Source of the DNA: Candidatus Latescibacterota bacterium
Lineage (GTDB): Bacteria; JAAXHH01
Assembly (NCBI GenBank): GCA_022823465.1
Contig: JAJEHX010000033.1
Span: 62,001 to 126,000, forward strand
DNA length: 64,000 nucleotides
Reading direction: 5' to 3'
Shown piece by piece: positions 31,442 to 34,662 of this stretch. The notes below the pieces were generated by a model that was not told the origin of the DNA, made no database searches, and worked only from the letters and a program-made list of their open reading frames with translations. Numbering within the stretch: position 1 is the first letter of the stretch; the number at the start of each line of letters is the position of its first letter. A program made the translations under genes and the position numbers.

Positions 31442-31527
31442 GAACAGGACCGGATGTTGAAGTTGAGGGTGAGCGTGGCGCCCGGCATGGTGAACCGATT
31501 GCTGGAAACAGGAACGCCGGGAACCGT

Positions 31528-31918
31528 AAAACGTCCAAGCCGGCCGTAAGCCGAGTTCTGTGCCTTCGTGGCGAAGGTGGCGATCATCTATCTGGGACGG
31601 CTGTCGCCAGCCGCCTCTTGCGACCTTACCCGAGAGTCTCCGGTTGCCCGGCGGGCGAGACGGGCCGTCTCTCCTCTCCTATTCGGTCTTGCACCAGATG
31701 GGGTTTGTCCTGCCGGCCCGGTTGCCCGGACCGCGGTGAGCTCTTACCTCGCCTTTTCACCTTTGCCTCCCCGAAGGGATCGGCCGTGTGTTTTCTGTGA
31801 CACTTTCCGTGGCATCACTGCCCCCTGCCGTTAGCAGGCATCCTGCCCTGCGGTGCTCGGACTTTCCTCGCCCGCACGTTGGCGGACGCGATCGCCTGGA
31901 CGACTTGGGACGTTTTAC
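31528..31918 (-). ncRNA. rnpB: RNase P RNA, bacterial type A
   Basis: Catalytic RNA that matures tRNA 5' ends. On the minus strand the conserved 5' block GAGGAAAGTCCGAGC appears near 31875, followed by a GGCAGGGGGCAGTGA stretch, ACAGAAAACA, GGTGAAAAGG and GGTAAGAGCTCACC. Near the 3' end come GGTCGCAAGAGG, ATAGATGATCGCC and ACAGAACTCGGCTTA. The ends pair: AAAACGTC plus CAAG (31916-31905) with CTTG plus GACGTTTT (31539-31528) form helix P1 with a single bulged C. The size (about 390 nt) is normal. A promoter immediately upstream predicts a start at about 31918. Plus-strand frames here are shadows. Confidence 0.95.
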
Positions 31919-31924
31919 ACCGTT

Positions 31925-31953
31925 AATATACCCAATGGCGCGTCGCGGTTCAA
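31925..31953 (-). promoter_or_regulatory. Promoter of rnpB
   Basis: On the minus strand: TTGAAC (31953-31948), a 17-bp spacer and TATATT (31930-31925). It ends 7 bp before the predicted 5' end of RNase P RNA. The -35 box lies in the last unit of the 25-bp repeat array. Confidence 0.7.
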
Positions 31954-32044
31954 GTCCGGAGCAGGATAAGCGATTCAAGTCCCGAGCAGGATAGGCGGTT
32001 CAAGCCCGGCACAGGATGAAGTGTTCAACCCCGGCGCGGGCTGG
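31945..32044. repeat. Four 25-bp tandem repeats upstream of rnpB
   Basis: TTCAAG or TTCAAC recurs at 31949, 31974, 31999 and 32024, exactly 25 bp apart. The units share CCCGGxxCAGGAT-like cores, diverging towards 32044. Read on the minus strand, each unit offers a TTGAA word; only the rnpB-proximal one has a -10 box at the correct distance. Confidence 0.85.
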
Positions 32045-32086
32045 TTGGATGGGCGCCCCGGGCGGCGCGCAACGGGCAGACGCGTT

Positions 32087-32803
32087 TCAGAACTCAGGGC
32101 CGTCTTCCGTAATCAGGATCCGGCCGCAACCTTCACAGGAAACAAGCCTCTGTGCCTGCCGGATCTGCAGCATGACCTGCAGCGGAATCACGTGGAAACA
32201 GCCGGAGCAGGCCCCTTTCTTTACGGGCACGACGGTCATCCCCCGCAGGTTCCGCCGTATGCGGTCGTATACCTTGAGGACCTGGTTCTCCACGCGCATG
32301 GACATTCGCTTTCGCTCATCCATTTTGACGGTGACGTCTTCGTCCACCGCCGAAAGCCTGGTCTTGAGCGCCGTGCGCTCTTCGTCCAGGCGCTCGATCA
32401 GCGAATCGGTCTCGCCGCGCATGGACTCCAGCGCTTCACTCTCCGTCTCGGTCTCGGTGATTAACTGCAGAATCGCGTCTTCGAGTTCCGAGATGAGGGT
32501 CTTCTGCGCCTGGATCTCCGTCTGGAGCGCGTCGTACTCCTTGTTGGTCTTTACGCTGTAAAGCTGGCCCTGGTACTTCTTGACCTGTTCCTGGGCGGTC
32601 TGCAGGTCCCGCTCGCGCTGACGCCGGTCTTTTTCGATGTCCGCGACCTTCGTTTCCTGGTCCGCGAGCCTGGTTTCCGCTTCGGCCTGGACGGTGCCCA
32701 TCGTCTCCAACTGATTGGGAATGTCTACCTTGTACTGTTCGAGTTCGTGCAGGTCCTGATCCGTCTTCTGAAGTTCCAACAGCGCTCTCAAGCTCTCCTG
32801 CAT
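32087..32803 (-). CDS. Coiled-coil zinc-ribbon protein (CdsZ/zf-RING_7 family)
   Basis: 238-residue protein: an N-terminal region is followed by a long charged coiled coil (about residues 5-165, rich in E, Q, R, D) and a C-terminal zinc ribbon. The ribbon cysteines are in GACSGC and SCEGCG (CxxC plus CxxC). This is the bacterial and chlamydial C4-type zinc-ribbon family, whose cellular role is uncertain. I start at ATG 32803 (MQESLRALLELQK), where homologous sequences begin; the frame opens to 32881 but that extension reads through a terminator hairpin. It is transcribed from a promoter near 33030 through a leader that contains the hairpin, so expression may depend on read-through. Confidence 0.82.
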   Translation of the reverse strand: MQESLRALLELQKTDQDLHELEQYKVDIPNQLETMGTVQAEAETRLADQETKVADIEKDRRQRERDLQTAQEQVKKYQGQLYSVKTNKEYDALQTEIQAQKTLISELEDAILQLITETETESEALESMRGETDSLIERLDEERTALKTRLSAVDEDVTVKMDERKRMSMRVENQVLKVYDRIRRNLRGMTVVPVKKGACSGCFHVIPLQVMLQIRQAQRLVSCEGCGRILITEDGPEF

Positions 32804-32839
32804 GCGACCTTGACCCTCCATGGAGATGAAAAGGCGGAC

Positions 32840-32869
32840 AAAAAAAAATGCACTCTGACAGTGCATTTT
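32840..32869 (-). terminator. Intrinsic terminator in the leader of the zinc-ribbon gene
   Basis: On the minus strand a perfect 10-bp stem AAAATGCACT / AGTGCATTTT encloses loop GTCAG. The stem's terminal Ts extend into a run of nine Ts (32848-32840). It lies 37 bp upstream of the start codon, not after a gene. Confidence 0.8.
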
Positions 32870-32997
32870 CCTTCGTTTCAATCTGGTTTTACCGGGCCCC
32901 GGGTCCGAAGAGGCAATTGCAGCCGGACCATGCAGACAATCGGGCTCGTAGACATATCCATCCTTTTCCTAATACTACTTGCTTTATTCGATTATAG
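32840..32997 (-). ncRNA. Candidate leader RNA or small RNA ending at an intrinsic terminator
   Basis: A transcript from the TTGACA-17-TATTTT promoter at 33032-33004 would start near 32997 and end at the hairpin about 155 nt later. Inside it, GGTCCG and CGGACC can pair across 16 nt. A GC-rich near-palindrome CCCGGGGCCCGG follows, then an AT-rich stretch before the terminator. I do not recognise it as SRP RNA, 6S RNA, tmRNA or a known riboswitch. It contains no convincing open frame. It may be an attenuator for the zinc-ribbon gene or an independent small RNA. Confidence 0.45.
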
Positions 32998-33008
32998 ATC
33001 TTTAAAAT
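32979..33008 (+). promoter_or_regulatory. Promoter of the anchored RidA-like gene (shares -10 with the divergent promoter)
   Basis: TTGCTT (32979-32984), an 18-bp spacer and TAAAAT (33003-33008). The same AT-rich element is the -10 of the minus-strand promoter. The RidA-like gene starts at 33054 after a strong GAGGAGG. Confidence 0.5.
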
Positions 33009-33032
33009 AATGCCGGAAGCGCGTGGTGTCAA
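33004..33032 (-). promoter_or_regulatory. Promoter of the leader RNA / zinc-ribbon gene
   Basis: On the minus strand: TTGACA (33032-33027), exactly 17 bp, then TATTTT (33009-33004). The -10 overlaps the -10 (TAAAAT) of the plus-strand promoter. Confidence 0.65.
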
Positions 33033-33053
33033 CCAAAATCAGAGGAGGGTATC

Positions 33054-33572
33054 ATGGGTTCGATCATACGATTACGCGGCAATAAAACGGAAGAAACGGT
33101 CGAATTGAGCATTGCCGTTTCCAAGTGGCTGTTCGCCGGCTTCCTGGCGCTGCTCGTCGCCGCTGTTTCCCTGGGTTACGCCGTGCTGCCCGCCCAGTCG
33201 CAGGACGACCGGGGCCGCAAGGCCATCGCGCCGGGACAGAACTACAGCGAGGCCATTGAGGCGGGTGACTTCGTGTTCCTTTCCGGCAAGATCGCCGCCG
33301 TTCGCGGCCGGATCATCCCGGGTGGCATCCAGGCGGAAACGAAGATGGTCATGGACAACCTGCAGAAGGCGCTGGCCAAGTCCGGGCTGACGATGGACGA
33401 CGTCGTGAAGGCCACGGTGTTTCTAAGCGACCTGAATGACTTTGCCGCCATGAACGAAGTGTACCGGTCCTACTACACGGGCGATCCGCCCGCCCGTTCC
33501 ACCGTTCAATCGGGGGTCGTCCTCAACGCCGGTATCGAAATCGACCTGATCGCCTACCGCGGCGGCAAGTAG
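33054..33572 (+). CDS. Membrane-anchored RidA/YjgF-family protein
   Basis: 172-residue member of the RidA (Rid/YER057c/UK114) family, whose cytosolic members deaminate reactive enamines and imines. The Rid domain covers about residues 55-170 with an AGDFVFLSGKI strand, ALAKSGLTMDDVVKATVFL and the active-site PPARSTVQ segment containing the conserved arginine; it ends IEIDLIAYRGGK. Unusually, an N-terminal extension of ~50 residues contains one hydrophobic helix (about 24-46), likely a signal or anchor, which would place the domain outside the cytosol. The ATG follows AGAGGAGG. Its stop codon lies inside a 23-bp tandem repeat. Confidence 0.88.
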   Translation: MGSIIRLRGNKTEETVELSIAVSKWLFAGFLALLVAAVSLGYAVLPAQSQDDRGRKAIAPGQNYSEAIEAGDFVFLSGKIAAVRGRIIPGGIQAETKMVMDNLQKALAKSGLTMDDVVKATVFLSDLNDFAAMNEVYRSYYTGDPPARSTVQSGVVLNAGIEIDLIAYRGGK

Positions 33573-33618
33573 TCGCCTACCGCGGCGGCAAGCAGTCGCC
33601 TACCGCGGCGGCAAGTAG
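33550..33618. repeat. Three 23-bp tandem repeats spanning the RidA-like stop codon
   Basis: Units begin at 33550, 33573 and 33596 with TCGCCTACCGCGGCGGCAAG. The first unit ends with the gene's TAG stop. The second has CAG at that position and the third TAG again. Because 23 is not a multiple of three, each copy is read in a different frame. Confidence 0.9.
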
Positions 33619-33642
33619 TCGCCGGGCCGCTCCGGAGAGCGA

Positions 33643-34662
33643 ATGGAAGAAAAAACGAAGGTTGGCGTGATCGGACTGGGGCTGGGGCAGGCTCATCTCG
33701 CCGGTTACCTGAAGAACGAAAAGGTCGAAGTCATCGGACTGGCTGACCTGGACACGGGGCTGGTCGAGCGAACCGCGTCGGAGCACGACGTGCCCCACGC
33801 GGTCTCCGACTACCGGGACCTGTTCGCCCTGGGACCCGATCTCGTCAGCGTCTGCCTGCCGAATTTCCTTCACGCTCCCGTGACCATCGACATCCTGGAT
33901 GCCGGCGTCCACGTCCTGTGCGAAAAGCCCATGGCGCTGAACGCGGTCCAGGCGCGGGACATGGTGGCGGCCGCCCGGCGCAACGGCCGGTACCTGATGA
34001 TCGCCCTGAACAACCGTTTCCGCACCGAGACGCAGATCCTGAAGAAGCTCGTCGAACAGGACGTGCTGGGCGACATCTATTACGCAAAGACCGGATGGCT
34101 GAGGCGGAGCGGCATTCCCGGACCGGGGACCTGGTTTACCCGCAAATCCCAGGCCGGAGGCGGCCCCTTGATCGACCTCGGCGTCCATATGATCGATCTC
34201 ACGAGATGGCTCATGGGCAACCCCCGTCCCGCGTCCGTGGCAGGCGCCACCTTCTCCCGGCTGAGCGACGCGGTGGAAGGCGTTTTCGACGTGGAAGACC
34301 TTGCGGCGGCCTTCATCCGGTTCGAAGGCGGGATCACGCTCGTCGCGGAGACGAGCTGGGCCTCCCACGTCCCCTCGGAGGGTTCATACGTCAAGCTGAT
34401 GGGCACCCGGGGCGGCGCCGAGATCACGGGCAACGACCTGACCGTATATACCGATCTGCACGGCGAACAGGTGGATATCACGCCCGCCTACGCGCCGCGT
34501 GAATGGTCGGACTGCATCGCGGCCGAGATCGCCCATTTCGTGGACTGCATCCGGGCCGGGCGCACCCCCATGTCGACGGGCGAACAGGGCGTCGAAATCA
34601 TGCAGATCCTGGATGGCATCTACGAGTCGGCCTCGGAAAACCGGATGGTCCATATCGCCTAG
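33643..34662 (+). CDS. Gfo/Idh/MocA-family oxidoreductase
   Basis: 339-residue NAD(P)-dependent sugar or cyclitol dehydrogenase-like protein. The Rossmann domain starts with KVGVIGLGLGQAHL (dinucleotide motif) and reaches the family EKP motif (E94-K95-P96). The C-terminal domain has GGGPLIDLGVHMIDLTRWLMG, which supplies the aspartate/histidine pair typical of the family. The substrate cannot be read from sequence. It starts 24 bp after the repeats following the RidA-like gene and is probably co-transcribed with it. Its end is 12 bp from the convergent lipoprotein gene. Confidence 0.9.
   Translation: MEEKTKVGVIGLGLGQAHLAGYLKNEKVEVIGLADLDTGLVERTASEHDVPHAVSDYRDLFALGPDLVSVCLPNFLHAPVTIDILDAGVHVLCEKPMALNAVQARDMVAAARRNGRYLMIALNNRFRTETQILKKLVEQDVLGDIYYAKTGWLRRSGIPGPGTWFTRKSQAGGGPLIDLGVHMIDLTRWLMGNPRPASVAGATFSRLSDAVEGVFDVEDLAAAFIRFEGGITLVAETSWASHVPSEGSYVKLMGTRGGAEITGNDLTVYTDLHGEQVDITPAYAPREWSDCIAAEIAHFVDCIRAGRTPMSTGEQGVEIMQILDGIYESASENRMVHIA

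Follow-up and report, generated by a model that had tools for sequence, protein, structure and literature searches.

A conserved, locus-specific terminator hairpin before the zinc-ribbon gene of a Candidatus Latescibacterota bacterium, and its probable role as an attenuator

What is the role of an intrinsic terminator that stands between a gene and the only promoter found for that gene? This question is raised by a gene encoding a zinc-ribbon protein on the minus strand of a 64,000-nt stretch of DNA from a Candidatus Latescibacterota bacterium, referred to here as the window (Table 1). The product has a coiled-coil hairpin and a C-terminal C4 zinc ribbon (CxxC...CxxC). It matched two Pfam families above cut-off, PF24481 (CT398_CC, E 1.5e-13) and PF02591 (Zn_ribbon_9, E 1.8e-8), and its best PDB matches were 4ilo (CT398, E 7.5e-15) and 3na7 (HP0958, E 7.7e-12). 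All four cysteines of the ribbon are invariant, and ten relatives have a VKTNKEYDA motif in common. Zinc-ribbon proteins of the CT398/HP0958 type are widespread and their known roles are in flagella and type III secretion.

Table 1. Positions of the features at the zinc-ribbon locus, numbered from the first nucleotide of the window.
Feature	Position	Strand	Basis or remark
Sigma-70-type promoter, TTGACA-17-TATTTT	33004..33032	-	Promoter scan, 10/12 matches
Leader RNA ahead of terminator	32870..32997	-	Start inferred about 7 nt past the -10
Upstream open reading frame, MDMSTSPIVCMVRLQLPLRTRGPVKPD and stop, with AGGAAAAGG ahead of it	32878..32961	-	12-genome comparison
Predicted intrinsic terminator / attenuator, AAAATGCACT-GTCAG-AGTGCATTTT then TTTTT	32840..32869	-	Folding and conservation
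Spacer from terminator to start codon	32804..32839	-	Shine-Dalgarno GGAGGG
Zinc-ribbon gene, CT398/HP0958 family, 238 aa	32087..32803	-	PF24481, PF02591 and PDB matches
rnpB promoter-like site, TTGAAC-17-TATATT	31953-31925	-	Promoter scan
rnpB (class A RNase P RNA), gene following on the downstream side	31532..31907	-	RF00010, 269.8 bits

The original prediction had placed a promoter upstream of a perfect 10-bp hairpin with a nine-T run ahead of the start codon, and both elements were confirmed by direct reading of the minus strand. The promoter hexamers TTGACA (33032-33027) and TATTTT (33009-33004) are separated by 17 nt. The hairpin itself, located between this promoter and the coding region, occupies 32869-32845 with ten perfect pairs and is followed by nine consecutive T, the last of them at 32840. 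From the T-run to the ATG (32803) the distance is 36 nt, with GGAGGG upstream of the ATG. When the minus strand was scanned for promoters from 31500 to 34500, one further promoter-like site was detected, namely that before rnpB; no other promoter for the zinc-ribbon gene was found in this range, and none in the spacer between the hairpin and the gene. Folded in isolation, the hairpin reached -11.1 kcal/mol (z = -4.3 compared to shuffles). A terminator scan of the region listed the stem only once, with its plus-strand tail, and this count of 1 was below the shuffle mean of 3.1. As the scan did not rise above shuffles, the case rests on the comparison between genomes.

The phylum of the window is small and 16 of its genomes were compared, 12 of which belong to the same genus. 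Promoter, leader and hairpin are all kept in the 12 genus genomes, most of which have TATCTT as the -10 of the promoter. The other four (L012, L014, L015 and L016) are more distant, with 50-60% protein identity, and have a leader that looks unrelated, and in each of them direct reading revealed a TTGACA promoter and, at the same position, the hairpin AAGTGCAC...GTGCACTT with a T-run. The hairpin is found at the zinc-ribbon gene in 16 of 16 genomes. Sites that fit TGCACN3-9GTGCAYTTTT number one to three per genome in this set, with one per genome at the zinc-ribbon gene.

Loci labelled Calditrichota, KSB1 and Latescibacteria also have this hairpin ahead of the zinc-ribbon gene; the labels come from the record titles of related loci, and some MAGs may have been mislabelled. 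Whole-genome searches with the exact pattern located sites directly upstream of the gene and on its strand, with 21 of 40 genomes positive in the phylum of L086 and 27 of 81 in the phylum of L067; for the phylum of L046 and L068 the numbers were 9 + 11 of 64 genomes. Altogether, the terminator stands directly upstream of the zinc-ribbon gene in at least 84 genomes from four phyla (16 + 21 + 27 + 20), the exact-pattern counts being lower bounds. Many genomes of these phyla have no exact match at the gene; some of them carry variants, such as GTGTAC/GTACAC in L064 and L077, and in others nothing was found. With the bare hairpin AAGTGCAYN3-12RTGCACTT, for which no T-run was required, exactly one site was obtained in each of 29 of the 81 genomes. 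Twenty-seven of these sites lie 29-168 nt upstream of the zinc-ribbon gene on the same strand and all have a T-run, while the remaining two are away from the gene and lack it. A control pattern, read backward, matched in one genome of the same 81-genome search. Judged from these comparisons, the hairpin is raised above chance by its conservation and is a locus-specific element, not a generic or house-style terminator. A second short palindrome, GCATGCACCCGGTGCAYTTTT, was observed away from the zinc-ribbon gene in many genomes of their phylum (L094, L095, L098, L105, L108, L111, L113, L119 and L120, at about 1501) and is probably coding sequence.

The part of the terminator that is conserved can be written as AAGUGCAY-loop-RUGCACUU followed by the T-run. 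Among 42 aligned hairpins, 95.9% of the cells of the ten-pair stem were paired and seven of the ten pairs had changed on both sides, with a covariation score of 0.320 compared to 0.179 +/- 0.015 for shuffled and at most 0.151 for slid alignments. The inner stem and the loop length vary freely, but the letters at the stem base, AAGTGCA/TGCACTT, hardly change. Among 67 hairpins, two pairs of the GUGCAC core are invariant, and in the asymmetric GUGCAU/GUGCAC form the letters are kept at the expense of a G-U pair. Since any complementary stem would terminate, the fixed letters suggest recognition of the sequence; letters kept beyond the needs of pairing suggest that the stem base is read by a sequence-specific factor. 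In the Latescibacteria form of the hairpin, AAGGTGCACCTGYTCAGGGTAGCACCTTTT, a single bulged base is kept in 11 genomes (L232-L242) and may mark a protein contact. This conserved stem, specific to its locus, had been passed over by the original prediction, as had the 27-codon reading frame in the leader and the rnpB gene downstream.

The attenuator layout that had been proposed is strongly supported by the promoter and terminator in the 12 genus genomes and four distant relatives and by the terminator across phyla, and we consider an attenuator reading of these sequences well supported and probable. RNA polymerase would start at the TTGACA promoter, transcribe about 155 nt of leader and stop at the GUGCAC-type hairpin, with termination in vivo predicted near 32840. 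Where the hairpin is kept from forming, the polymerase would read through, and only read-through transcripts would give the zinc-ribbon protein. A search with the 5' arm of the stem against 55 leaders revealed no antiterminator helix (mean z 0.09), and a third copy of the arm was present in one leader. As leader segments showed no more pairing with this arm than shuffled leaders did, a protein or the ribosome is left as the switch.

The best explanation, to which we would give somewhat less than an even chance, is a dedicated attenuator with a stem that is read by a trans-acting factor, most likely the product of the gene itself. Such an RNA-binding factor would read the AAGUGCA/UGCACUU stem base and alter termination; with the zinc-ribbon protein as the most likely factor, control would be autogenous, and either more or less read-through could result. 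The gene's own product is the prime candidate because the Borrelia protein BB0713, which also combines a coiled coil with a C4 zinc ribbon, strongly antiterminated at the trpL terminator in E. coli RL211 and unwound it moderately in vitro (PMC13285594), and because HP0958 binds flaA mRNA via its zinc ribbon (PMC5947703). In the BB0713 assay other RNA chaperones likewise antiterminated (PMC13285594), and trpL is unrelated to the GUGCAC hairpin. Since the family can open intrinsic terminators and the present gene stands behind a unique, conserved one, autogenous control appears to be the most economical reading and moderately likely. The broader proposal, that across multiple phyla proteins of the CT398/HP0958 type control their own genes by antitermination, recognising the GUGCAC stem of the terminator and either melting or stabilising it, is put forward tentatively and with lower confidence.

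The other candidate for the switch is the ribosome, which at the end of a short reading frame in the leader would cover the 5' arm and allow read-through, so that the translation status would set expression. The upstream frame of the window has 27 codons (84 nt) and its stop codon is 8 nt before the hairpin. It is ungapped and free of internal stops in 12 of 12 genus genomes, with TGA swapped for TAA in one of them, and the changes within it are mildly synonymous (16 of 40, against an expected fraction of 0.274, P = 0.057). A related frame, MSPIFAITLSLLLQRWTRQNRFMS and stop, was detected in L012, whereas no frame of this type was found in L014. The GGTCCG/CGGACC stem and the CCCGGGGCCCGG element, in which the original prediction had seen possible alternative structures, are indeed present; they are inside this frame and are not conserved outside the genus. 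In a set of 61 loci, 26 had an ATG frame ending from -15 to +3 of the hairpin, compared to 9.2 in dinucleotide shuffles. However, in a stricter control, which combined the distal leader from one locus with the proximal part from a second one and so left the A-rich hairpin flank intact, the excess shrank to 23 versus 17.5 +/- 3.1 frames, or 9 versus 6.4 for those with a Shine-Dalgarno sequence. A universal upstream frame was demoted to a rival explanation because its excess mostly vanished once this flank was kept. Moreover, the peptides show no sequence conservation from clade to clade, and the fixed letters of the stem would be left unexplained. We consider control by the ribosome rather unlikely as the account of this element, with leader-peptide control plausible in the genus of the window and unproven elsewhere. 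In a separate observation outside the genus, short frames that end at the hairpin or within it, such as MLRYLAFLSTTETRTCKPESALR and MLRFLAFLLTTETRHFKLQSALP, resemble each other in close pairs among L055, L057, L086, L090 and L162-L164.

The hairpin could also be a plain, partial terminator without any regulation, derived from the terminator of an ancestral tRNA-Met gene and doing no more than fix how much upstream RNA is made relative to zinc-ribbon mRNA. A tRNA-Met(CAT) or tRNA-Val gene is located just upstream in many relatives, where the hairpin could end the tRNA transcript, and it may therefore have begun as a tRNA terminator. However, no tRNA gene precedes it in the window, in the order of the window or in nine KSB1-type loci, and the hairpin is still present there, which is not predicted for a mere tRNA terminator. 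A plain terminator also gives no reason why the AAGUGCA letters should be the same from phylum to phylum when those of the inner stem are not. This explanation is, in our view, an unlikely one.

Two further readings of the leader had been offered by the original prediction, a terminating riboswitch and an independent ~155-nt small RNA, together with the statement that the leader matches no known RNA family. The last of these held when the Rfam search was run, as the leader gave no match at gathering score and chance-level matches only at E up to 10. The whole 195-nt leader folded no better than its shuffles (z = -0.35), and it can be aligned across the 12 genus genomes, but not between phyla. 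A riboswitch or T-box aptamer finds no counterpart in this fold, in the alignments between clades or in Rfam, and with neither a conserved leader structure nor an antiterminator helix the terminating riboswitch is not supported. The independent small RNA would end at the hairpin and be unrelated to the downstream gene. Promoter and terminator do bound a short transcript, but from one clade to the next the leader is entirely different in sequence and the terminator alone stays; the poor fold, the lack of an Rfam match and the failure to find a second promoter for the zinc-ribbon gene also speak against it. With a leader that lacks both conservation beyond the family and any alternative pairing with the terminator, a riboswitch is unlikely and a stand-alone small RNA very improbable. 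Equally improbable is a DNA operator, a GTGCAC inverted repeat bound by a repressor, for which the near-palindromic arms would speak; the spacing of the arms varies widely with the loop and thereby disfavours it, the inner stem shows RNA-type covariation, and the gene-linked sites listed have a T-run behind them.

Of the 20 relatives that were scanned, 19 have the zinc-ribbon gene followed by rnpB. We considered the hairpin as a mimic of a hairpin in RNase P RNA and rejected this, as ten rnpB genes examined contained no GUGCA/UGCAC match; a second copy of the hairpin is absent in genomes of one phylum, which also speaks against such mimicry. As a control, a simple finder was applied to terminators after rnpB and gave only 1 candidate in 22 loci, too few to be informative. 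The literature was searched for rnpB with DUF164 or a zinc-ribbon leader, for the CT398 zinc ribbon domain and for Zn_ribbon_9, and nothing was found. Between the zinc-ribbon gene and rnpB there is also a tandem 25-bp repeat (31945-32017, reaching to about 32040), with one copy in most genus relatives read and two in L007. The -35-like hexamer TTGAAC of the rnpB promoter is contained in every unit, and the -35 region therefore seems to be amplified. Another tandem repeat, of 23 bp (33550-33623, 3.2 copies, 96% match), starts at the end of a RidA-like gene (33054-33572, plus strand) and runs into the gap behind it, its first copy encoding the C-terminus of the RidA-like protein.

Several known systems can be compared with the proposed attenuator. 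The trp and whiB7 types are leader-peptide attenuators with an intrinsic terminator, and CspA-family antitermination is a read-through of terminators brought about by RNA chaperones. LicT/SacY RAT, PyrR and HutP use a trans-acting RNA-binding protein and a sequence-specific RNA site near the terminator; in these systems a separate antiterminator structure overlaps the terminator, whereas here the terminator stem is the conserved site. The vmlR leader-peptide attenuator (PMC9226507) is alike in having a short frame before the terminator and a gene expressed via read-through. In comparison to it, the present element has no conserved peptide or antiterminator helix across clades, and the terminator stem is its conserved part. 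The action of BB0713 on trpL (PMC13285594) is similar in that a member of this family, with coiled coil and Zn_ribbon_9, antiterminates at and unwinds an intrinsic hairpin, but the terminator there was artificial and unrelated, while here it is natural, conserved in sequence and located before the family's own gene. HP0958 (FlgZ) and flaA mRNA share with our locus the protein family and the binding of RNA through the zinc ribbon; the available portion of that report names flagellin mRNA as the target and reports no attenuator at the protein's own gene (PMC5947703).

The conserved cis element before the zinc-ribbon gene is real and apparently undescribed. It is also unusual as a conserved RNA element, because conservation falls on the terminator stem itself and involves neither an aptamer nor an antiterminator. 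A terminator kept nearly to the letter at this gene in several phyla, and close to absent from the rest of those genomes, provides a concrete RNA target and ties the CT398/HP0958-type family to the control of transcription termination. If the proposed autogenous control is true, this would be the first natural cis target for the family, and its core function would be that of a specific transcription termination or antitermination factor.
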